A DNA stretch of 64,000 bases from Pelagibacteraceae bacterium AG-426-G09 (lineage in GTDB: Bacteria > Pseudomonadota > Alphaproteobacteria > Pelagibacterales > Pelagibacteraceae). The position numbers were made by a program, and so were the translations under genes. Positions 28,887 through 41,449 of the stretch are shown here, piece after piece (positions within the stretch are counted from its first letter, which is position 1; each line of letters starts with the position of its first letter). The stretch is from assembly GCA_003210075.1 (NCBI GenBank), contig QCNR01000002.1:19811-83810 (forward strand). Reading direction: 5' to 3'. The notes under the pieces were generated by a model. The model worked only from the letters and a program-made list of their open reading frames with translations, did not search any database and was not told where the DNA came from.

Positions 28887-30056
28887 TTAGCTCTTTATAT
28901 GCAGTTCTTTTGAAAGATTACAAAATAATTCTGATCCAGTTTCAGTAACTCTAACAGACTCTGAGGCTTCTACTCCCCACTCACCAAACTGCATTACAGC
29001 AATCATATGAAAACAAATATTTTTTTCTAATACTGTTTTGTCTCCTTTAGAAATATTTAATGTGTGCTCTCCCCAATCTGGTGGATAACCAATTCCAATT
29101 GAATAACCAGTTCTCGATTTTTTTTCGATACCATACTTATCTAAAACTTTCCAAAATGCTTGCGCAACATCATCAGCAGTATTTCCTGGTTTAGTTACAT
29201 CTATACCTGCATGAAGTGCTTCTATAGTTTTTTTCATTGTATCTATTTTTTTTTGATCAGGTTTCCCAAGAAGAACGGTTCTAGCCATAGGACAGTGATA
29301 TCTTCTATAAACTCCAGATAATTCAATAATAGTTGCCTCCCCTTCTACAAACTTGTTATCGCTCCATGTTAAATGAGATGCAGATGTACCTTTTCCAGTT
29401 GGTAAGAGTGGAACTATTGCGGAATAGTCTCCACCATATTCATTTGTCCCTTTTATTAATGTACTCGCAATCTCTGAAACCAAATCATTTTGTCTAACAC
29501 CGGGTTTAATAAATTCAAAAGCTTTTTTCATTCCAAGCTCAGTAATCTTACTTGCTTTCTTCATTAAATTTATCTCTGCATCAGATTTAACTACTCTTGC
29601 CCAATTGACTAATCTTTCGCTGTCAATTAGTTTTGCGTTAGGTAAGCCATCTAATAATTTTTTATACGAATATGCTGTAAAATAATGGGCGTCCATTTCT
29701 AATCCAATATTTAAACTTTCCCATTTCCTTTTCTTTATTAATTCTACAATTGCGTCATAAGGATGAGTTGGCCATGTATGAATATATTTTTCATCATAAG
29801 AAATTATATTTTCATGTTTTATATAACAGTTAATATATGCGCCTCCTGCATCTTGAGCTCTAACAAATAATAATGGTTCATCAGCATCTATATGTATTAT
29901 TGCACATTGGGCGTAATAAAATGACCAAGCATCATAGCCAGTAAGATAGTTTATATTTGGAGTGTCTTGTGAAATTAAAAGATCAATACCTTTTTCTTGC
30001 ATAGATTTTTTAACTTTATCTAGCCTCTCTTTATATTCCTCTTTTGAAAATAACAT
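28887..30056 (-). CDS. M24-family hydrolase, ectoine hydrolase (DoeA/EutD)-like
   Basis: About 389 aa. Pita-bread creatinase/aminopeptidase P fold: an N-terminal creatinase domain (GIDLLISQDTPNINYLTGYDAWSFYYAQ, very like DoeA) and a C-terminal domain with family histidines and acidic residues (GIGYPPDWGEHTLN). The track starts at a TTG (30080); I prefer the ATG at 30056, one base after the preceding stop. Ectoine hydrolase opens the ectoine ring. The canonical doe/eut partners eutBC or doeBD are absent from the window, so the substrate may differ (for example creatine- or peptide-like). Confidence 0.72.
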   Translation of the reverse strand: MLFSKEEYKERLDKVKKSMQEKGIDLLISQDTPNINYLTGYDAWSFYYAQCAIIHIDADEPLLFVRAQDAGGAYINCYIKHENIISYDEKYIHTWPTHPYDAIVELIKKRKWESLNIGLEMDAHYFTAYSYKKLLDGLPNAKLIDSERLVNWARVVKSDAEINLMKKASKITELGMKKAFEFIKPGVRQNDLVSEIASTLIKGTNEYGGDYSAIVPLLPTGKGTSASHLTWSDNKFVEGEATIIELSGVYRRYHCPMARTVLLGKPDQKKIDTMKKTIEALHAGIDVTKPGNTADDVAQAFWKVLDKYGIEKKSRTGYSIGIGYPPDWGEHTLNISKGDKTVLEKNICFHMIAVMQFGEWGVEASESVRVTETGSELFCNLSKELHIKS

Positions 30057-30057
30057 T

Positions 30058-30801
30058 TTAATTTGAGAATAATTTTCCAAATCCAGTAACAGATTTATTC
30101 ATTCCTATTTTTTCTAAAGTTTCCCAAATTAAAGCCTGGTTACTAGATAAAACCATTTTTTTATGTTTTTTTTCTAACCTATCTATTATCGCTAAAGCTG
30201 GAAGAGCTGTACAAGAAATAAATAAAGCATCAGCATCATTTAGTTTAATATTAGACAACACCTCATACAAATATTCTGGATCAACTTTTCCAATATCTAT
30301 ATCTGATTCTATATCAAAATAGGAATTAGATGTTATTTCAAATCCTTCTTTTTTAAAAAATTCAATTACTTCATCATTTAATTTTTTTGGGTACGGAGTA
30401 AATAAATAAATTTTTTTTATATCTAATTTTTTTAACGCATTTACAGCTGCTGTGCTTGGAGTTGTTACACTTGTGTTTGGTTTTGCTTTTTTAATTTTTT
30501 CTTCAATTGAATTATATCCAGCTGCTATTGTTCCTGAAGTACATCCATAAGCGACACAGTCTATTTTTTCATCAGGCAATATATCTTTGGTAACTTCAGT
30601 AATTTTCTCAGACATTTTAATTAGATTTTCAGATGTTAGAGGATTAAAGGTTTCTATTCTATTTACAAAAAAATCAATCTTCTTATCTTTAATAACGCTA
30701 ATGAAATCTTTTTCGATCATATAATCGCTGGATAGCGCAATTAAACCTATTTTTGGATTTAATTCCTTTAAAAATTTAGGTAGTATTTTTTTTGTTTCCA
30801 T
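30058..30801 (-). CDS. Asp/Glu racemase-superfamily protein (EutA / arylmalonate decarboxylase / maleate isomerase-like)
   Basis: 247 aa. Two catalytic cysteines of the superfamily are in the expected places: VAYGCTSGT (about residue 85) and LFISCTALPA (about residue 195), with the TPSTAAVNAL and YLFTPYPKKLN segments typical of maleate isomerase/EutA. It acts on a small dicarboxylate or amino acid. It is coupled to the DoeA-like gene (stop-start almost touching), which is the eutA-eutD pairing seen in ectoine-use clusters. The real substrate is unproven. Confidence 0.75.
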   Translation of the reverse strand: METKKILPKFLKELNPKIGLIALSSDYMIEKDFISVIKDKKIDFFVNRIETFNPLTSENLIKMSEKITEVTKDILPDEKIDCVAYGCTSGTIAAGYNSIEEKIKKAKPNTSVTTPSTAAVNALKKLDIKKIYLFTPYPKKLNDEVIEFFKKEGFEITSNSYFDIESDIDIGKVDPEYLYEVLSNIKLNDADALFISCTALPALAIIDRLEKKHKKMVLSSNQALIWETLEKIGMNKSVTGFGKLFSN

Positions 30802-30839: not shown

Positions 30840-30936
30840 TAAATAACGCAAGCGATACATAACTCGTCGTTTTAACTTCATAAGCTAAACGAAAGTGGGA
30901 TCGGTCGTCTTTAAATTAGTTTTTAAAGGAGGCTTA
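30840..30936 (+). promoter_or_regulatory. candidate structured leader / riboswitch-like element
   Basis: A G+C-richer stretch in an otherwise A/T-rich gap. Hairpin 1 (30867-30892) folds UCGUUUUA with UAAACGA (one bulged U), plus CUU/AAG around a CAU loop. Hairpin 2 (30909-30928) is CUUUAAA-UUAGUU-UUUAAAG, and its 3' arm overlaps the ribosome site AAAGGAGG (30925-30932) of the ATG at 30937. Such a fold would hide the ribosome site. The conserved-looking core AAGCUAAACGAAAGUGGGAUCGG lies between them. No known riboswitch class was recognised. Confidence 0.45.
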
Positions 30937-32103
30937 ATGAACTTTGGCTATTTTTGTAATACCACCAATTGGAATAAAAAATCTTATACGCAATTATTAG
31001 AAGAAGCTAGGGAGATAGCAATTTATTGTGATCAAAGTAATTGGAATTCAATTTGGTTTACTGAACATCATTTTAATCATGAAGGAATGGAAGTTTGTAC
31101 AAATCCATTAATGATGTGTACCGATGCTGCCGCAAGAACAAATCAAATTAGATTGGGACAAGCTTGTAATGTAATTACATTTCATAATCCAATTAGACTA
31201 GCTGAAGATATTGCTACTTTAGATCAAATGTCAAAAGGTAGAGTAGAAGTTGGTATTGGAAGAGGCGTTTACGGAAGAGAAGCTGTACACATGAACAAAG
31301 AAGCTGATCTAAAAGATCAAGCAAAAAACTTTAGATTATTTTCAGAAACACTTGAAATAATGAAAAAGGCTTGGACAGAAGATTTTTTTTCTCATAAAGG
31401 AGAATTTTACAACTACCCATCAGATAATTTTGTATGGCAACATGATATGAGCCCACCGATTGATGGTGTAGTGGAAAAACAAACAAACGTATTAAAAAAA
31501 ATAAGTGTTCTTCCAAAACCATATCAACAACCTCATCCACCTATTTCTCAAGTGGTTGATGGTGAAAGATCAATTCAGTGGGCCGCAGAAAATGGAATTA
31601 AAACAATAATGTGGATCCCTACAGTTAAAGCTCTCAAGAAAAGATTTGAAATTTATAGAGATGCAAAATCAAAAGCTGAAAATAGAGATGTTCCATTAGG
31701 AGAGGGAATTTCTTTAGTAAGAGATATGTTTGTTGCTGAAACAATGGAAGACGCAAAAAAGATGGCTGGAGAACATATTGTAAATTATATGAGATGGGTG
31801 TGTCACTGGAGAGGTTTGGGTAATCATATGGATCCAGATGAAAAGTTACCAGAAACAAAAAATAAATTAGATCTTTTAAATTATGAGTTTTTACATGGTA
31901 GAAATCTTTTATTTGGGACACCAGATTATGTAGTAAGTAAAATTAAAGAACTTCAACAAGAATTAAATCTTCAAAATTTACAGGTGTGGTCAAATTTTCC
32001 TGGAGTAAAACATGAAGATAGTATGAGAAGTATTAAATTATTTACAGAAGAAGTTATGCCAAAAATAAACGCTTTGGATGCAAATATCCAAAGAGCAAGC
32101 TAA
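30937..32103 (+). CDS. luciferase-like (LLM-class) flavin-dependent monooxygenase
   Basis: 388 aa. I reject the track's GTG start at 30895 and use the ATG at 30937, which has AAAGGAGG five bases before it and matches family N-termini (MNFGYFCNTTNW). TIM-barrel luciferase family signatures include SIWFTEHHF, AARTNQIRLG, RLAEDIATLDQMSKGRVEVGIGRG and PPISQVVDG. Such enzymes use reduced FMN and oxygen to cleave C-N, C-S or C-C bonds. First gene of a five-gene unit, overlapping the next by one base. No flavin reductase lies nearby. Confidence 0.85.
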   Translation: MNFGYFCNTTNWNKKSYTQLLEEAREIAIYCDQSNWNSIWFTEHHFNHEGMEVCTNPLMMCTDAAARTNQIRLGQACNVITFHNPIRLAEDIATLDQMSKGRVEVGIGRGVYGREAVHMNKEADLKDQAKNFRLFSETLEIMKKAWTEDFFSHKGEFYNYPSDNFVWQHDMSPPIDGVVEKQTNVLKKISVLPKPYQQPHPPISQVVDGERSIQWAAENGIKTIMWIPTVKALKKRFEIYRDAKSKAENRDVPLGEGISLVRDMFVAETMEDAKKMAGEHIVNYMRWVCHWRGLGNHMDPDEKLPETKNKLDLLNYEFLHGRNLLFGTPDYVVSKIKELQQELNLQNLQVWSNFPGVKHEDSMRSIKLFTEEVMPKINALDANIQRAS

Positions 32104-32687
32104 TGGATTTAAAATTAAGAAAATTTACAAAATTTGTAGATAAAACTTTTATTGAAGGTGGAAAGAAAGCTAAAGAACCAGTTCTACTAGTTTCTGTTGC
32201 AGCAGTAATTCAAAATCCTTGGGCAGGAAAAGGTTTTGTTGAAAATTTAAAACCAGAAATTTTAGATCTTGCACCACAGTTAGGTGATTTATTAGTTCCA
32301 GAACTTGTGAAAGAGATTGGATCAGGTGATAAAATTTTAGCTTATGGAAAAGCAGCAATGGTTGGTTTAAATGGTGAAATTGAACATGCTTCTGCATTTA
32401 TACACACATTAAGATTTGGAAATAAGTTCAGGGATGCGGTTGGAGGAACTGCTTATTTAAGTTTTACAAACACAAGAGGTCCAGCGGGATCAAAGATTTC
32501 TATTCCAATGATGCATAAAACGGATGCTGGTTTGAGACCATTTTATTTAACTCATGAATTTACTATTCATGATGCACCAAACGAAGATGAGATAGTGGTT
32601 GCAATAGGTGGTGCACCATTTGGAAGAGCTCATGCAAGAACAGGTGATAGATATCAAGATATGAAAGAGATGGGTCTTTCAAAATAA
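32103..32687 (+). CDS. DUF1185 / amino acid synthesis family protein
   Basis: 194 aa. It matches the DUF1185 (PF06684, 'amino acid synthesis') family known mainly from genome context: VSVAAVIQNPWAGKG, the GKAAMVGLNGEIEHASAFIHT segment, and VVAIGGAPFGRAHARTGDR. The reaction is not established; structures in this family resemble YjgF/chorismate-mutase-like trimers. Its start overlaps the monooxygenase stop (TAATG), so the two are made together and probably act in consecutive steps. Confidence 0.8.
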   Translation: MDLKLRKFTKFVDKTFIEGGKKAKEPVLLVSVAAVIQNPWAGKGFVENLKPEILDLAPQLGDLLVPELVKEIGSGDKILAYGKAAMVGLNGEIEHASAFIHTLRFGNKFRDAVGGTAYLSFTNTRGPAGSKISIPMMHKTDAGLRPFYLTHEFTIHDAPNEDEIVVAIGGAPFGRAHARTGDRYQDMKEMGLSK

Positions 32688-32690
32688 TTA

Positions 32691-33476
32691 ATGTTATATA
32701 ATTTTGACAAAGATCAAAATCACTATTTTTTTAAAAATAATAAGTCAATTCCATTAGTTTTTATTCATGGTGTTGGACTTAATCAGGGTATGTGGCAACC
32801 ACAAATCAATTATTTTAAAGATGAAACTATACTTACTTATGACTTATTAGGACATGGCAAAACAAAGTATAATAAAAATACTATAAAAATTGAAGATTTT
32901 AGATCTCAATTAAAAAATTTATTAGTAAATTTAAATATTCAAAAAATTAACCTTGTAGGTTTTTCCATAGGTGCTTTAATAGCTATTGATTTTGTTTCTG
33001 AATATAAAAAATACTTTAACTCTTTAACCTTGATTGCGACTACATATAAAAGAACTGATGAAGAAAGGAAGAAAGTTATTGATAGATTAAATCTTGCAAA
33101 GAAAAATATGCCATTATCTAAACTTGCAATGAAAAGATGGTTTAGTGACAAATATCTAGAAAATAATCCTGCAGTATATAAAGAGTTTATGAATATTTTA
33201 AATAAATCGGGAGAAGACCATGAAAACTTTATTAAAGCATACGATTTATTTGCAAATTATATAGATGATGAAATAAAGGTAAAAAAAATAGATGTTAATA
33301 CTCTTATAATTACAGGATCAGATGATCCTGGCTCAACTTCTAAAATGTCCAGAGAATTAAATAACGATATACCTAATTCTAAATTTATTGAGATAAAAGG
33401 TGGAAAACATCTATGTAGTATTGAATGTTCAGATGATGTAAATATTGCAATAAAAGACCATATTAATAATGCCTGA
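32691..33476 (+). CDS. alpha/beta hydrolase
   Basis: 261 aa. Oxyanion segment FIHGVGLNQGMW, nucleophile elbow VGFSIGAL (Ser), acid loop TGSDDPGS, and His in GGKHLCSIE. The fold resembles PcaD/RutD-type ring-cleavage hydrolases. It lies between the DUF1185 gene (three-base gap) and an aldehyde dehydrogenase (eight-base overlap), consistent with hydrolysing the monooxygenase product. Substrate unknown. Confidence 0.85.
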   Translation: MLYNFDKDQNHYFFKNNKSIPLVFIHGVGLNQGMWQPQINYFKDETILTYDLLGHGKTKYNKNTIKIEDFRSQLKNLLVNLNIQKINLVGFSIGALIAIDFVSEYKKYFNSLTLIATTYKRTDEERKKVIDRLNLAKKNMPLSKLAMKRWFSDKYLENNPAVYKEFMNILNKSGEDHENFIKAYDLFANYIDDEIKVKKIDVNTLIITGSDDPGSTSKMSRELNNDIPNSKFIEIKGGKHLCSIECSDDVNIAIKDHINNA

Positions 33477-34950
33477 ATTAAAAAAATATAAAATGTTTAT
33501 TAATGGGGAGTGGGTTGACTCTGAAAGTAAAAAAACATTTGAAACTTTAAATCCAGAAAATAATAAACCATGGGCTGTAGTTCCTGAAGCAAGCGCTAAA
33601 GATGTTGATAAAGCAGTCAAATCTGCTCAAAAAGCTTTTGAAGGGGAATGGTCTAAAATATTGCCTAGAGAAAGAGCAAAATATTTAAGAGCTATCGGGA
33701 GCAAACTTAGAGAGAATGCTGAGCTATTAGGCAAAGTTGAAACAGTTGATACAGGTAAACTTTATAGAGAAACTTATAAACAAGCTAATTACATTGCTGA
33801 GTACTATGACTACTACGCAGGACTTGCAGATAAAATTGAAGGTACAGTTCTTCCAATTGATAAACCAAATATTCAAGCTATTACAACTAGAATTCCAATT
33901 GGAGTAATTGCAGCTATCGTTCCTTGGAATTCACAAATGTTTTTAACAGCAACTAAACTTGCACCTGCGCTTGCCATGGGAAATACTGTTGTAATTAAAG
34001 CATCAGAACTTGCGCCAGCTACGATGTTTGAATTTGCAAAATTAATTGAAGAAACAGGAATTCCTAAAGGAGTAGTAAATGTTATTACAGGTTTTGGAGA
34101 TCCATGCGGTAAAGCTTTAACAACTCATAATTTAGTTGAAAAGGTTGCATTCACAGGTGGTCCTGAAACAGCAAGGCATATAATAAGAAATTCTGCAGAA
34201 AATTTATCTGAAGTAAGTTTAGAACTTGGTGGAAAGAGTCCAGTTGCAGTATTCAACGATGCACATCAGGAAAATGCAGTTAATGGAATTACTGCTGGAA
34301 TTTTTGGTGCATCTGGACAAAGTTGTATTGCTGGTTCAAGATTATATTTACAAAAAGAAATTTATAATGAATTTTTAGATAAACTTACAGCTAGAGCAGA
34401 AAAAATAAAAATAGGAGCGCCAATGGATCCAGATACAGAAATGGGACCATTAAGTAATTTTAAACAATTAGAAGTTATTGAGAAAAACATAAAATTAACT
34501 TTAGAGCAAGGTGGAAAAATTAAATGTGGTGGCAAAAGACATTCATATTCAAATGAAGGATATTATTTTCCTCCAACAATTATTGAATGTGATAATCACA
34601 ACTTGCCAGTTGCAGAAAATGAATTATTTGGTCCTGTTTTGTCAGTTATGAAATTCGAAAACGAAAAAGAAGTAATTGAAAAGATGAATGATAATCAATT
34701 TGGATTATCCTCTGGAGTTTATACTAGCGATCTGGCTAGAGGATTAAGAGTTTCAAACGCAATCAGAGCAGGAATTACATTTGTAAATACATACAGATTA
34801 ATTTCACCATCTGCACCATTTGGAGGGATTAAAGATAGTGGATATGGAAAAGAAGCAGGCATCGACTCAATTAAAGACTACACAAGAGTTAAAACTATTT
34901 GGTACTACACATCTGACGAACCAACCCTCGATCCCTTTGCAATTAGATAG
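33469..34950 (+). CDS. aldehyde dehydrogenase
   Basis: 493 aa. Catalytic Cys in ASGQSCIAGSR, Glu in SLELGGKSPV, cofactor segment IVPWNSQMF and FTGGPETAR. It is closest in look to the betaine/hydroxymuconic-semialdehyde group of dehydrogenases. It should oxidise the aldehyde product of the preceding monooxygenase and hydrolase steps. It overlaps the hydrolase gene by eight bases and shares one base with the GTG start of the next gene. Confidence 0.87.
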   Translation: MPELKKYKMFINGEWVDSESKKTFETLNPENNKPWAVVPEASAKDVDKAVKSAQKAFEGEWSKILPRERAKYLRAIGSKLRENAELLGKVETVDTGKLYRETYKQANYIAEYYDYYAGLADKIEGTVLPIDKPNIQAITTRIPIGVIAAIVPWNSQMFLTATKLAPALAMGNTVVIKASELAPATMFEFAKLIEETGIPKGVVNVITGFGDPCGKALTTHNLVEKVAFTGGPETARHIIRNSAENLSEVSLELGGKSPVAVFNDAHQENAVNGITAGIFGASGQSCIAGSRLYLQKEIYNEFLDKLTARAEKIKIGAPMDPDTEMGPLSNFKQLEVIEKNIKLTLEQGGKIKCGGKRHSYSNEGYYFPPTIIECDNHNLPVAENELFGPVLSVMKFENEKEVIEKMNDNQFGLSSGVYTSDLARGLRVSNAIRAGITFVNTYRLISPSAPFGGIKDSGYGKEAGIDSIKDYTRVKTIWYYTSDEPTLDPFAIR

Positions 34951-35807
34951 TGCCACTTAAACATATATTAGTTTTACTTTTTATAATGGCTACACATGGA
35001 AGTGCCTTTCCAATAGCAAAACTTGCTCTTAACAATAATGTTCCACCAATTCTTATGGCCTCTCTAAGGATGGGCATGGTAATGCTACTATTAATTCCTT
35101 TTTGGAAATTTAAAATTCCAGACAAAAAATATCTTAAATCACTTATTTTATTTTCAATTTCTATGGGTGTAATGGTATATGTTTTTATGAATCTATCTTT
35201 AAAACATTCTTCATTTATTTCTCCAATAATAATTGGTGCTCAGTTAGCTGTCCCCTTTGCTGTTTTATTAAGCGCAAAAATGATTGGGGAAAGTATTAGT
35301 GCTAAGAAATGGATGTATGTTATTTTAGCTTTTGTAGGAATTATTATTGTTTTCTTTGATCCTGAATTAAAAAATAACTTACTTGGATTATTTTTTGCAT
35401 CATTGATGGCTTTATTTTTTGCTATAGCTCAGGTCTACTCAAGACAATTGAAAGAATTAAGTCTTACATTATTAAATGTTTATACTGGCTTTTTTGGCTT
35501 CTTTGTTCTTATTGTGGTGTCTTTTTTTGTAGAAGGTGAAGTGATTATCAATATAAAAAATATTAATTTTGAGTCTTGGATTTTAATTAGTTATCAGGCT
35601 GTAATTGTTTCATTGTTTGCTCACATGTCTATGTTTTATTTGTATAAATTTTATACAGTAGGACAGATTTTTCCCTTCTACTCTTTATTTCCAATATTTG
35701 GGATCATTTTGACTTTTTTGATATTTGGTGAAATTCCAAGCCTATTATTTTTTATAGGGAGCTTTATCGTTATAAGTTCAGTAATTTTACTGCAGAAAAC
35801 CAAATAA
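34950..35807 (+). CDS. DMT-superfamily (EamA) transporter
   Basis: 285 aa, ten predicted membrane helices in two EamA halves (ATHGSAFPIAKLAL and VIVSLFAHMSMFYLYKF). The GTG start shares its G with the stop of the aldehyde dehydrogenase, so it is translationally coupled. Inner-membrane carrier, possibly importing the pathway substrate or exporting a product. Direction and ligand cannot be read. Confidence 0.78.
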   Translation: MPLKHILVLLFIMATHGSAFPIAKLALNNNVPPILMASLRMGMVMLLLIPFWKFKIPDKKYLKSLILFSISMGVMVYVFMNLSLKHSSFISPIIIGAQLAVPFAVLLSAKMIGESISAKKWMYVILAFVGIIIVFFDPELKNNLLGLFFASLMALFFAIAQVYSRQLKELSLTLLNVYTGFFGFFVLIVVSFFVEGEVIINIKNINFESWILISYQAVIVSLFAHMSMFYLYKFYTVGQIFPFYSLFPIFGIILTFLIFGEIPSLLFFIGSFIVISSVILLQKTK

Positions 35808-35881: not shown

Positions 35882-37063
35882 ATGAAAAAATTAATTTTAG
35901 CTGCTTTTCTATTTGTTTCGACTATGTCGACAAATACTTTGGCAGATATTAAAATGGGGATCATATTAGGATTTACAGGTCCTATTGAATCTCTTACTCC
36001 AGCTATGGCAGCTTCTGCTGAGCTTGCTTTTAACGAAGCATCAGACTCAGGTAAATTGCTTGGTGGACAAAAAATATCAGTAGAAAGAGCTGACTCGACT
36101 TGTGTTGACTCTGCTGCTGCTACAACTGCTGCTGAAGGTTTAGTTTCAAACGGAGTAGTTGCTATTATGGGTGCAGACTGTTCTGGAGTTACTGGTGCTA
36201 TCGCAACTAATGTTGCAGTACCAAACGGAGTAGTGATGATTTCACCATCTGCTACATCTCCTGGATTAACTGATCTAAATGATAATGGATATTTCTTTAG
36301 AACAGCTCCATCAGATGCTAGAGGTGGACAAATCTTAGCTGATATTACAAAAGATAGAAAAGTTAAGAGTGTTGCTATAACATACACAAACAATGACTAC
36401 GGTAAAGGTTTAGCAGATGTTTATAAAGCTGCTGTAGAGGCTCACGGTATTAAAGTAACAACTGTTGCTGCTCACGAAGATGGTAAAGCAGACTATTCAG
36501 CAGAAGTTGCTACACTTGCTTCAGCAGGCGGTGATGCAGTTGCTGTTATTGGTTACATTGACCAAGGTGGAAAAGGAATAATCCAAGCATCTCTAGATTC
36601 TGGTGCATTTGATAAATTTATTTTATCAGATGGTATGATCGGAGATTCTTTAACAGATAACTTTGGTAAAGCTTTAAACAAATCATTTGGTTCTTTACCA
36701 GGTTCAACTGGAAAAGGTGCAGGAGTATTTGCTGATGTTGCAAAAGCAGCAGGTATAGACTCTTCAGGACCTTACACAGGTGAATCATATGATGCTGCTG
36801 CTTTAATTACCTTGGCTATGCAAGCTGGTGGTAAAGCTGATAGAGCAACAATTCAACAAAATGTAATGGCAGTTGCTAATGCTCCTGGAAAAAAGATTTA
36901 CCCAGGTGAATTAGGAAAAGCTTTAGATTTACTTGCAAAAGGTAAAGCTGTTAACTACGAAGGTGCTACTGGAGTAGAAATGACAGATGTTGGTGAAGCT
37001 TTTGGTTCTTTCTTAGAAAAAGAAATCAAAGGTGGAAAATTTAAAACAAAAAAACAAAGATAA
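35882..37063 (+). CDS. livK: branched-chain amino-acid-type ABC solute-binding protein (system 1)
   Basis: 393 aa. Signal peptide cut near NTLADIKMG. It shows the Leu/Ile/Val-binding family opening IKMGIILGFTGPIESL and SADSTCVDSAAAT-type lobe segments, with the AVAITYTNNDYGKG hinge region. Periplasmic. Codon use (rich in GCT, GGT, GAT) suggests strong expression. It is encoded convergently with the livMHFG genes that probably serve it, instead of in their operon. A tight terminator follows. The ligand may be an amino acid or another small acid. Confidence 0.86.
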   Translation: MKKLILAAFLFVSTMSTNTLADIKMGIILGFTGPIESLTPAMAASAELAFNEASDSGKLLGGQKISVERADSTCVDSAAATTAAEGLVSNGVVAIMGADCSGVTGAIATNVAVPNGVVMISPSATSPGLTDLNDNGYFFRTAPSDARGGQILADITKDRKVKSVAITYTNNDYGKGLADVYKAAVEAHGIKVTTVAAHEDGKADYSAEVATLASAGGDAVAVIGYIDQGGKGIIQASLDSGAFDKFILSDGMIGDSLTDNFGKALNKSFGSLPGSTGKGAGVFADVAKAAGIDSSGPYTGESYDAAALITLAMQAGGKADRATIQQNVMAVANAPGKKIYPGELGKALDLLAKGKAVNYEGATGVEMTDVGEAFGSFLEKEIKGGKFKTKKQR

Positions 37064-37565: not shown

Positions 37566-38936
37566 TTATTGCTTTATAATTTTTTCAGGTAAAATTCCCT
37601 GTGGTCTATATCGCATGATAAGTAATACCCCAATTCCAATCATCAAAAATCTAAAGTAAGAAGCGCTTTCAATTAAATGAACTTTTAAAGCATTTGTTTC
37701 TGGTAAGTGAGCAGTAAAGAAATTTATTAAAAATAAAGCTATAGGCGCAGCTTCTACCCATAAAAACCAAACCACAAAACCGCCTAGTATAGCTCCGAAA
37801 TTATTTCCTGTACCACCTACTATAACCATTACCCAAATAACAAATGTGTATCTCATTGGTCGATAGCTTCCTGGAGTAAACAAACCGTCATTTGTTACCA
37901 TCATAGCACCTGCTAAACCAACAACCGCAGATCCTAATATAAAAATTAAAAGATGTTCTTTGACAACATTTTTACCCATGGCACTTGCCGCTTCTTCATT
38001 GTCTCTTATTGCTCTCATTTTTCTTCCCCAAGGTGAATAAAGGGCTTTTTGAGTGATAATTAATAAAATTATAACAACAGTTAAAAAAAGTCCTGCCATA
38101 CATAGTTTTACATAAACTGATGACGCATCAATTACCAATTGTTTTAAAACATCTTGTCGTTCTGAAAGAGTATCAATTACTTTTAATTTACCTGAATTAA
38201 ATTTTTCTACTAAACTAATAAACCAAGGTGAAGTTTGAAGGTCAATTTCATACGGAACAGGTCTTTTTAAACCTATTACGTTCTTTACTCCTCTAGCTAA
38301 CCAATCCTCATGTTTAATTATAGAAACCACAATTTCAGCAATTAACAATGTTGCAATTGCTAAATAGTCTGCTCTTAAACCAAGTGCGATTTTTCCAATA
38401 ATATAAGCTAATCCACCAGCAAAAAATGCTCCAACTATCCAAGAAAATAGTATTGGCATTCCTAAGCCACCTAAGAAGCCGGTTTTAGCAGGATCGACTG
38501 CTTCAATACTTTCAATTCCTGGGCCTGCTAATAATCTAATTAAAAGCAAACCAATTACAATAATACCTGCTATTAAATAATTTCTTTTTTTTGATTTTTG
38601 AATTTTTTTTAAAACATAACGAATTGAAACAATCATAGCTACCACTACACCTAACGAGCCTATCATATTAATTCCACCTGCTTTCCATGCTTCAGGTACT
38701 GGAGCAACAGAAACAAGAACTACAGCTAATCCACCTAATGCAGTGTACCCCATAATTCCAAAATTAATTAAACCTGCGTATCCCCATTGAATATTTGCGC
38801 CAATGGTCATAACTGCTGAAATTAAACAATAATTTAAAATAGAAAGAGCTTGCGACCATGATTGAAGTATTCCCACTAAAATAATTAGTGTAAACATTAT
38901 CATATAAGCTGTTACTACATTTAGATATTGCTTCAT
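37566..38936 (-). CDS. livM: branched-chain amino-acid ABC permease LivM (system 1)
   Basis: 456 aa. It has the LivM core with GLINFGIMGYTALGG near the N-terminus and the C-terminal GSAVVGLAGAMMV / GGTGNNFGAILGG segments. It is longer than the second LivM in this window (349 aa) because of an extra membrane and linker region at about residues 95-170. Inner membrane. It overlaps livH by four bases. Confidence 0.87.
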   Translation of the reverse strand: MKQYLNVVTAYMIMFTLIILVGILQSWSQALSILNYCLISAVMTIGANIQWGYAGLINFGIMGYTALGGLAVVLVSVAPVPEAWKAGGINMIGSLGVVVAMIVSIRYVLKKIQKSKKRNYLIAGIIVIGLLLIRLLAGPGIESIEAVDPAKTGFLGGLGMPILFSWIVGAFFAGGLAYIIGKIALGLRADYLAIATLLIAEIVVSIIKHEDWLARGVKNVIGLKRPVPYEIDLQTSPWFISLVEKFNSGKLKVIDTLSERQDVLKQLVIDASSVYVKLCMAGLFLTVVIILLIITQKALYSPWGRKMRAIRDNEEAASAMGKNVVKEHLLIFILGSAVVGLAGAMMVTNDGLFTPGSYRPMRYTFVIWVMVIVGGTGNNFGAILGGFVVWFLWVEAAPIALFLINFFTAHLPETNALKVHLIESASYFRFLMIGIGVLLIMRYRPQGILPEKIIKQ

Positions 38937-39943
38937 AATCTTAGTCCTTTAAATATTCCTGATGGTCTAAATAGTAATACAATTACTAAAAGAGAGAACG
39001 ATACAGCAAATTTATAATCTGTAGAAAGTAGCTGCATTAATGAATTTGGTTCAAGACTTTCTGGAAGTATATAAGTAAAAAACTTTTTATAAGCGTAGGT
39101 TATAAATATTTCTCCAAAAGCTACTACATAGCCACCTAAAAATGCTCCTAATGGATTTCCAATTCCTCCGACAATTGCTGCAGCAAATATTGGTAACATA
39201 TTATTAAAATACACAAATGGTTTATAGCTTTTGTCCAAACCATACAAAACTCCACCAACAGTAGCTAAGATACCAGCTATTACCCAAGTTAATAGTACAA
39301 CCTTTTTTGGATCTATTCCTGATAATAAAGCAAGGTCTTCATTGTCAGAATAGGCTCTCATACTTGTTCCAGTTTTAGTTTTGTTTAAAAACCAAAACAT
39401 TATTGAAACAACAATTACAGTTACAACTATTGTAATTGCTTGAGTTGACTTAATTGTTAAACCCTCATTTAATCCTGTCATTTCTTTAAACTCTGTAGCT
39501 TTCAAAATAAACTTTTCACCATCTAGAAATCTTCTATCAAAAGGTCCAATAATAATTCTTATAATTGCTTGCGTAACAAACATTACACCAACACTCACCA
39601 TAGCAAGTACTACTGGTGGGCTTTTTTTTATCCTATAATAACTAAAAACAAATTTATCTATAGATAGCATGTATAAAATCATCATAATTACTGCAAAGGG
39701 AATAGTTAATAATGCTGTGGGCAAAAAACCAAAATTTATTCCAAGTGATTGAAAGTAAAATGTTAGCAATACAGCAAACATAGTTCCAAAAGACATCATG
39801 TCTCCTGTTGCAAAATTTGCGAACCTTAAAACACCATAAATTAATGTTACAAAAATTGCTCCTAATGCAAGTTGAGAGCCATAACTAAGTGCTGGAATTA
39901 TTGTATAGTTAAGAAGTAAAATTATTGCGTTCAAAAAATCCAT
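38933..39943 (-). CDS. livH: branched-chain amino-acid ABC permease LivH (system 1)
   Basis: 336 aa, about eight helices, with the family segments FANFATGDMMSFGTMFAV, MRAYSDNEDLALLSGIDPKKV (ATPase-contacting loop) and GGIGNPLGAFLGG. Partner of LivM in the inner membrane. It lies one base after livF and overlaps livM. Confidence 0.88.
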   Translation of the reverse strand: MDFLNAIILLLNYTIIPALSYGSQLALGAIFVTLIYGVLRFANFATGDMMSFGTMFAVLLTFYFQSLGINFGFLPTALLTIPFAVIMMILYMLSIDKFVFSYYRIKKSPPVVLAMVSVGVMFVTQAIIRIIIGPFDRRFLDGEKFILKATEFKEMTGLNEGLTIKSTQAITIVVTVIVVSIMFWFLNKTKTGTSMRAYSDNEDLALLSGIDPKKVVLLTWVIAGILATVGGVLYGLDKSYKPFVYFNNMLPIFAAAIVGGIGNPLGAFLGGYVVAFGEIFITYAYKKFFTYILPESLEPNSLMQLLSTDYKFAVSFSLLVIVLLFRPSGIFKGLRL

Positions 39944-39944
39944 A

Positions 39945-40652
39945 TTATCCTCCTAAAAAAGACCTCCTTACTTCTGGGTCTTGGAGTAGCTCGTTTCCAG
40001 ATCCTTCAAATTTATTTTGTCCAGTAACTAAAACATATCCTCTATCTGATATACTTAAAGCTTGTTTTGCGTTTTGTTCTACCATTATAATTGCAACATT
40101 ATTTTTTTTTACTTTGATTATATGTTGAAACAACTCATCCATTACGATTGGTGAGACCCCAGCCGTAGGTTCATCTAACATTAAAACTGAAGGTCTAATC
40201 ATTAAAGCTCTTCCCAAAGCTACTTGCTGTCTTTGTCCTCCAGATAATTCTCCAACAACTTGAGATTTTTTTTCATTTAGTATTGGAAATAATTCATAGA
40301 TTTCATCAATAACTTTATTTACATCATCTTCTCTTAAGAATGCCCCAACTTCTAAATTTTCTTTAACCGTCAAGTCAGCAAAAACGTTTCTTGTTTGAGG
40401 AACAAAAGAAATTCCTGCTTTAACTCTATCTTGTGGTGATAAACTTGTGATATCTTTGCCATCAATTGATATTGAGCCGGCCTTGAGTTTCAATAAACCT
40501 AACATTGCTTTCATAGCTGTAGATTTTCCAGCACCATTAGGTCCTAATATTGCAACAATCTCACCTCTATTAACATTTATTGAACAAGAGCTAATGATAT
40601 CAGGGCCATTGCCATAGCCTGCTGTCATCTTGCTTCCCTCAAAAAATGCCAT
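39945..40652 (-). CDS. livF: branched-chain amino-acid ABC ATPase LivF (system 1)
   Basis: 235 aa. Walker A GPNGAGKST, signature LSGGQRQQVALGRAL, Walker B VLMLDEPTAGVSP, and the LivF-typical MVEQNAKQAL switch region. Cytoplasmic ATPase subunit. Shares one base with livG. Confidence 0.92.
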   Translation of the reverse strand: MAFFEGSKMTAGYGNGPDIISSCSINVNRGEIVAILGPNGAGKSTAMKAMLGLLKLKAGSISIDGKDITSLSPQDRVKAGISFVPQTRNVFADLTVKENLEVGAFLREDDVNKVIDEIYELFPILNEKKSQVVGELSGGQRQQVALGRALMIRPSVLMLDEPTAGVSPIVMDELFQHIIKVKKNNVAIIMVEQNAKQALSISDRGYVLVTGQNKFEGSGNELLQDPEVRRSFLGG

Positions 40653-41449
40653 TAATTTTTTTCTCCATTATTTTCATTTCCTCTTCCAAGATAACTTTCA
40701 ATTACCTTTTCATTTTTTTTAACTTCTTCAGGACTCCCTTCAAATAAAACAGTGCCATCAGACATTACAATTACTGGGTCACACATTCTGCTTATAAAAT
40801 CCATATCATGTTCAATCATACAAAAAGTATAGTTTTTCTCCTTATTTAATCTCAATATTGCCGTACCAAGATCTTTTAAAAGAGTTCTATTGACGCCAGC
40901 TCCTACTTCATCTAGTAAAACAATTTTGGCATCAACCATCATAGTTCTCCCGAGTTCTAACAGTTTTTTTTGTCCACCAGATAAATTTCCAGCCAATTCA
41001 TTTGCCAAATGTTTAAGATTTAAAAAATCAATAACTTCATAGGCTTTAGCTCTAATAACTTCTTCTTCCCTTTTAATTAATGTGGGTTTTATTAAAGCAT
41101 TGATTAAATTTTCGCCAGATTGATTTCCTGGTACCATCATTAAATTCTCTAAAACAGTTAAATTTGAAAATTCATGGGCAATTTGAAAAGTTCTTAATAA
41201 TCCTTTTGTAAATAATTCATAAGACGGAACCTCAGTAATATTCTCATTATTAAATATAACTTGACCAGAATTTGGTTTTAAATTTCCAGCAATTAGATTA
41301 AATAAAGTTGATTTTCCTGAACCATTTGGTCCAATAATACCAGTTATAGATCCCTGTTTAATATTTAACGAACAATTTGATACAGCTGCTAGACCTCCAA
41401 AGTATTTAGTTAACTTTTCAACTTTCAAGATATTGGAATTTGAGTCCAT
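40652..41449 (-). CDS. livG: branched-chain amino-acid ABC ATPase LivG (system 1)
   Basis: 265 aa. Walker A GPNGSGKST, signature LSGGQKKLLELGRTM, Walker B IVLLDEVGAGVN, and MIEHDMDFI. Note that Walker B ends DEVGAG, where the paralogue at 45473 has DEPTAG. Second ATPase of system 1, directly following the ProC-like gene. Confidence 0.92.
   Translation of the reverse strand: MDSNSNILKVEKLTKYFGGLAAVSNCSLNIKQGSITGIIGPNGSGKSTLFNLIAGNLKPNSGQVIFNNENITEVPSYELFTKGLLRTFQIAHEFSNLTVLENLMMVPGNQSGENLINALIKPTLIKREEEVIRAKAYEVIDFLNLKHLANELAGNLSGGQKKLLELGRTMMVDAKIVLLDEVGAGVNRTLLKDLGTAILRLNKEKNYTFCMIEHDMDFISRMCDPVIVMSDGTVLFEGSPEEVKKNEKVIESYLGRGNENNGEKN

Follow-up and report, generated by a model that had tools for sequence, protein, structure and literature searches.

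A trigonelline-type gene module with a replaced oxygenase and a candidate leader-RNA switch in a SAR11 genome

A five-gene operon in the genome of Pelagibacteraceae bacterium AG-426-G09 looks like the SAR11 form of a known pathway type, the tgn module of trigonelline degradation, and not like an unknown pathway. The operon lies in a stretch of 64,000 nucleotides (contig QCNR01000002.1, positions 19,811 to 83,810; hereafter the window) and encodes an LLM-class monooxygenase (LLM), a DUF1185 protein, an alpha/beta hydrolase (ABH), an aldehyde dehydrogenase (ALDH) and an EamA/DMT carrier (Table 1). Judging from homology and gene arrangement, we lean towards a module for ring opening of N-methylated pyridinium carboxylates, probably a betaine from plankton, with homarine or trigonelline as the likeliest substrate class, and under a translational switch in its leader RNA. 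SAR11 are the most abundant bacteria in the ocean, and the opening of such betaines, if true, would give them a route to carbon and nitrogen. The parts that look new are the leader RNA and the exchange of a gene cassette between two alleles of the operon.

Gene content and order, read directly from the DNA, confirm that the operon is real and conserved beyond this strain. Its five open reading frames are all on the forward strand, neighbouring frames share 1 to 8 bases or have a 3-base gap between them, each product scores above the cut-off of its Pfam family, and the LLM start (30937) is consistent with the starts of LLM relatives. The order LLM-DUF1185-ABH-ALDH is kept in 80 named Pelagibacteraceae loci as far as each contig reaches; the loci were picked by closest match to the LLM, which over-represents this operon variant among them. 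A profile search found the DUF1185 family (PF06684) in 72 of 200 relatives, and among related genomes many have another cassette instead. An earlier note, made from the sequence alone, had described a nearly touching catabolic operon that combines flavin/oxygen chemistry with hydrolysis and aldehyde oxidation and lacks an adjoining flavin reductase, and had made its case depend on a gene order shared with other strains; all of this holds. It had not remarked on the leader RNA directly ahead of LLM or on the other cassette of many relatives. It had also assigned transport to the DMT protein. The gene family is correct; the carrier is missing from the homologous loci L037, L039, L050, L051 and L052, and this optional presence makes the case for its transport role weak, on which ground it was rejected as the pathway importer.

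By homology, the SAR11 DUF1185 and ALDH are members of the tgn module, and the LLM is not. Trigonelline degradation by tgnABCDEF was reportedly worked out in Acinetobacter baylyi ADP1 (Perchat et al. in 2018), and its reaction scheme is the one used here. DUF1185 has a described role in that pathway as TgnF, according to the passage of PMC7913881 that cites it. The earlier note's term "uncharacterised" was therefore too strong: a known, assigned pathway for the DUF1185 partner was one of the two findings that the note itself had named as refuting it. Plasmid searches that started from the window DUF1185 and went on to a related LLM located operons of exactly DUF1185, ABH, flavin reductase, LLM and ALDH in Leisingera, Thioclava, Sinorhizobium meliloti pSymA and Rhizobium phaseoli, and likewise among the plasmids of Pantoea, Caballeronia, Ruegeria and Acinetobacter; a GntR gene stands beside most of them. 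On a plasmid of Acinetobacter sp. PK01 (L177), three genes of the module are annotated tgnA, tgnB and tgnC, and the cluster adjoins sarcosine-oxidase-type genes and a succinate-semialdehyde dehydrogenase (SSADH) gene. A second cluster arrangement (LLM 41–43%) occurs in Rhizobium and Agrobacterium. A BCCT or ProXWV betaine carrier adjoins two tgn-like clusters, which fits betaine substrates. Separately, the complete tgn-like cluster of S. meliloti pSymA (L167, near noeB) includes SSADH and sits beside a nodulation gene; legume-associated trigonelline catabolism has reportedly been found in rhizobia, and L167 is a likely gene set for it.

The kinship with tgn goes beyond the family level for two of the proteins. 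The window DUF1185 is 56% identical to that of the annotated PK01 cluster and 54–58% identical to those of nine tgn-like clusters, against only ~37% for other (outgroup) DUF1185 proteins. The window ALDH is 51% identical to the annotated TgnC, and quick maximum-likelihood trees group the SAR11 ALDHs with TgnC and the loci L151 and L152 in a single clade (99 SH-aLRT) separate from type II and the outgroups. The LLM shares 24% identity with TgnB and falls in a different clade from both TgnB and the Rhizobium type, and the ABH shares 27% identity over 255 aa with the tgn-cluster ABH, both having PcaD-like best families. A tgn-like DUF1185 and ALDH together with an LLM of another clade point to a tgn-like chassis with a replaced oxygenase. 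The bridge is locus L151, from another alphaproteobacterial family, in which a small flavin reductase, a SAR11-type LLM (53% identical to that of the window), DUF1185 (63%), ABH and a TgnC-like ALDH (60%) occur together, so that the whole module is retained around a SAR11-type LLM. As in the tgn pathway, an LLM oxygenase, ALDH, ABH and DUF1185 are clustered in SAR11; unlike it, the SAR11 version has a non-TgnB LLM, shows no TgnA-type reductase (none lies in the operon and none was found in the genome), lacks an SSADH or GntR gene alongside, and possesses an RNA leader. If the operon does open such betaines, TgnB-based markers would overlook this SAR11 route owing to the exchanged oxygenase.

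In the pathway that we propose, a two-component LLM would open the ring of homarine (N-methylpicolinate) or its isomer trigonelline (N-methylnicotinate), with reduced flavin mononucleotide (FMNH2) supplied by a reductase encoded elsewhere. The TgnC-like ALDH would then oxidize the aldehyde from ring opening, the ABH would cleave an N-formyl enamide to formate and an N-methylamine or N-methylamino acid, and the TgnF-type DUF1185 may have an assisting role. We infer the substrate and the order of these reactions, as well as any ligand of the leader, and every step past gene identity follows the tgn scheme. Heal et al. argued that TgnA/B is sterically unable to open homarine, which was also the most abundant compound that they measured, far above trigonelline (PMC8269262). 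Given this, a different oxygenase on the same chassis would fit homarine and makes it a natural candidate. A formate-tetrahydrofolate ligase gene beside the related cluster L193, and a DAO/GCV_T demethylase and MttB beside the related cluster L198, would fit formate and N-methyl products.

Part of the operon has been swapped between strains as a unit. In genome G112 (L034), the DNA flanking the operon is ~92–96% identical to the window on both sides, and identity drops with sharp edges to 59–84% between the start of LLM (30937) and the end of ABH (~33470). L034 represents allele B, with a 1.7-kb gene for a thiamine diphosphate (ThDP) enzyme between LLM and DUF1185; the window represents allele A. 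Proteins of the two alleles are 74% (LLM), 50% (ABH), 93% (DUF1185) and 96% (ALDH) identical. The ABH tree splits A from B (99 and 90), the LLM tree supports B (99) and does not support A (26), and the DUF1185 and ALDH trees mix the two, the window ALDH being sister to that of L034 (98). ABH thus co-varies with LLM between alleles, and LLM-DUF1185-ABH is swapped as a cassette; this clean exchange shows how SAR11 strains may switch substrate at one locus. Allele B is also the form present in a second family of the order (L040–L042).

Relatives of the ThDP enzyme, 56–61% identical to that of allele B, are encoded in the alphaproteobacterial clusters L193, L194, L195 and L198. All four contain ALDH and ABH, two contain DUF1185, three (L195 being the exception) have an LLM of the TgnB/Rhizobium type, and a LysR gene stands beside three of them. 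Either LLM type therefore seems able to serve this kind of pathway. These clusters differ from the SAR11 operon in their LLM and in that no leader match was found in their genomes. Their layout can be written LysR-[flavin reductase]-ALDH-LLM-DUF1185-ABH-ThDP, with parts that vary. The ThDP enzyme was rejected as a clue to the substrate, its nearest named relatives lying in an MttB/aminotransferase/FAD operon of Ruegeria. That operon, on the Ruegeria pomeroyi megaplasmid (L191:4351-13671), consists of MttB, a class III aminotransferase, two FAD oxidoreductases and an Xsc-like ThDP enzyme, and is likely one of betaine catabolism.

A conserved leader precedes the LLM gene in both alleles and in the second family. 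An alignment upstream of LLM from 94 loci gives the layout GATACATAACTCGTCG, a variable hairpin, ACGAAAGTGGGATCGGTCG and a final hairpin that pairs the Shine-Dalgarno sequence; the conserved cores are ACATAACTC and GAAAG[T/C]GGGATC, and CUUUAAA/UUUAAAG forms the terminal hairpin, which takes the Shine-Dalgarno AAAGGAGG into pairing. Comparison of 32 leaders from two families, between which the LLMs share 54% identity, shows nineteen columns without any variation. The covariance model R1 recovers the leader in the window (E=2.3e-14, this copy being a training sequence) and in 58 of 170 relatives, with one copy per genome in all genomes save one. Of 145 copies in the loci collected, 144 stand directly upstream of LLM (143 by script and L133 by eye), some from overlapping loci and so not all independent. 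Most training sequences came from the same loci, so the linkage to LLM and the covariation count as independent evidence and the Pelagibacter E-values do not. The exceptional copy is a decayed leader in genome G028 (L239:2945-3060, reverse strand) without LLM or Shine-Dalgarno, next to an AMDase gene, an arrangement shared with the window, and is apparently the relic of a lost or moved operon. Three genomes have a leader and no DUF1185 match, and two have leader and DUF1185 on separate contigs; contigs in these five break off inside the LLM or ThDP genes. The leader matched none of 4227 Rfam models, its motif was not found in viral contigs, the leader was not found in ten other alphaproteobacterial genomes including related cluster-bearing ones, and sigma-70 scans gave no more than chance.

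The structure of the leader, drawn by hand with 19 pairs, suggests that it is a genetic switch. Across the alignment 89% of pairs are standard and 7 pairs changed on both sides, which none of 500 shuffles equalled and compares with 0–4 in slid controls. The changes include U-A to C-G and G-C to A-U, and columns 24/67 show G-U in 27 rows and A-C in 5, a known isosteric wobble exchange. This covariation support is modest and uneven, as several pairs never vary, and the fold energy is not unusual (mean z −0.9). The Shine-Dalgarno is paired at a value of at least 0.7 in 36 of 41 leaders. From structure and covariation we predict a candidate riboswitch: the leader RNA would mask the ribosome-binding site and act on translation, probably in response to the substrate or an intermediate. 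SAM-V and other leaders of Ca. Pelagibacter (PMC2704228) are likewise short cis-regulatory RNAs of a streamlined SAR11 genome, and SAM-V is translational; their sequences are unlike this leader, and PMC2704228 makes no mention of a monooxygenase, DUF1185 or aldehyde dehydrogenase. A leader bound by a protein or small RNA, or acting as a thermosensor, is a serious possibility that we only mildly doubt. It would suit a leader found beside one operon only and normally once per genome, but it sits less well with nucleotides invariant across two families of such divergent LLMs (just 54%), with conserved internal bulges and a Shine-Dalgarno-masking hairpin that are riboswitch-like, or with a SAR11 operon that has no regulator gene. 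The boldest form of the riboswitch proposal, which taken whole we consider unlikely, is a new class sensing a pyridinium betaine (homarine) or its ring-opened product and activating translation of the oxygenase-replaced operon, with the substrate-specific half (LLM, with or without the ThDP enzyme, DUF1185 and ABH) swapped between strains as an allelic cassette. The leader offers an unbiased route to the substrate, since its ligand, if any, should be the pathway substrate or an intermediate.

Several observations weigh against a ring-opening tgn-type module under a leader switch. The operon has no flavin reductase, no PF01613 match was found in the AG-426-G09 genome (1.16 Mb in 38 contigs, 87% complete), and one FMN_red protein elsewhere is the only one in that genome. 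PF01613 occurs in only two of the same-genus relatives searched, and the second family mostly has one; Pelagibacter is thus almost always without this flavin reductase despite encoding an LLM monooxygenase. Beyond Pelagibacterales the SAR11-type LLM is uncommon, occurring in 14 of 385 genomes of the class, only a few of which also have DUF1185, and plasmid searches with it returned only unrelated contexts. The reaction of the ABH may differ, as it is just ~27% identical to its tgn counterpart, and the tgn names on the PK01 cluster are homology annotation. The extra ThDP enzyme of allele B has no place in the trigonelline scheme, and the P1 pairing of the leader is weak in several rows. SoxD is required by sarcosine- or N-methylglutamate-dehydrogenase-type complexes; it occurs in relatives with and without the operon, with no correlation, and its co-occurrence was discarded as a test for homarine, being uninformative when carriers and non-carriers both have it.

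Alternatives to the proposed pathway differ mainly in substrate. Under one of them, this is the published homarine operon (Ferrer-Gonzalez et al. 2026, Nat Microbiol 11:1531) in its SAR11 version, a narrowing of the proposal above that we regard as possible and hold tentatively: LLM, ALDH and hydrolase would take homarine to N-methylglutamate, and N-methylglutamate dehydrogenase would then yield glutamate. Both would concern a marine N-methylpyridinium carboxylate, and the published pathway uses Mgd, according to the passage of PMC13390433 that cites it. Homarine is plentiful in the sea and chemically near trigonelline, the LLM is unlike TgnB, and AG-426-G09 carries two SoxD genes, as found in N-methylglutamate-dehydrogenase-type complexes and also in sarcosine oxidase. 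The abstract of the homarine paper reportedly names SAR11 among the carriers. Rhodobacterales are said to carry the published operon too, but their plasmids, where searched, have almost no SAR11-type LLMs, and the presence of SoxD does not follow the operon among relatives.

A ring or substrate of another class (a further N-heterocycle, a lactam or an aromatic compound), with only the downstream ALDH/DUF1185 chemistry in common with tgn, seems rather improbable to us. The low identities of LLM (24%) and ABH (27%) and the additional enzyme of allele B would agree with it, as would the occurrence of DUF1185 in coumarin degradation (HcdD, in the relevant passage of PMC7913881). However, the match of DUF1185 and ALDH to tgn extends to the sub-type and is not limited to the families, and L151 holds the full module around a SAR11-type LLM. 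The earlier note had likened the gene logic to the Rut pyrimidine pathway, which likewise pairs an LLM-class enzyme with an alpha/beta hydrolase in one operon. A Rut-like pathway built from other proteins is very improbable, and the likeness did not survive closer comparison: at 69.9 bits the ABH falls far short of the RutD cut-off of 238.5, RutA is missing from the 25 best families of the LLM, no RutB, RutC or RutF gene was found in the operon, and tgn is the better-matching module.

Table 1. Features of the operon and its surroundings, in positions of the window
Feature	Position	Strand	Basis or remark
Structured 5' leader, 95 nt, candidate translational riboswitch	30845..30939	+	match extends into the LLM start codon
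LLM-class FMNH2-dependent monooxygenase	30937..32103	+	PF00296 Bac_luciferase, 152 bits; sole Bac_luciferase protein found in the 87% complete genome; putative ring-cleaving oxygenase
DUF1185/AA_synth, TgnF-type	32103..32687	+	PF06684, 216.8 bits; structures 2qtp, 3byq
Alpha/beta hydrolase (ABH), PcaD/TgnD-like	32691..33476	+	PF00561 Abhydrolase_1, 73 bits
Aldehyde dehydrogenase (ALDH), TgnC-like	33469..34950	+	PF00171 Aldedh, 538 bits
EamA/DMT carrier, optional last gene	34950..35807	+	PF00892 EamA, 81 bits
Liv-type periplasmic binding protein, possible importer component	35882..37063	+	PF13458
LivM/LivH/LivF/LivG ABC transporter genes, convergent	37566..41449	-	open reading frames; names by resemblance
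Divergent DoeA-like M24 hydrolase and EutA/AMDase-like pair, outside the operon	28887..30801	-	below ectoine cut-offs

Transport genes flank the operon downstream. The Liv-type binding protein adjoins it in most Pelagibacter loci and once in the second family (f2; L040), and the LivM/LivH/LivF/LivG genes hold the same position in many homologous loci. On the other side, the DoeA-like hydrolase scores 480 bits against a cut-off of 613 for DoeA, and the EutA-like protein 206 against 318 for EutA. L037 and L052 are examples of other loci where this pair does not adjoin the operon, and the divergent DoeA/EutA/Pot genes were rejected as members of the pathway because they are linked to the operon in some strains only. 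The pair adjoins a Pot-type ABC transporter and possibly belongs to another uncharacterized pathway for an N-compound.

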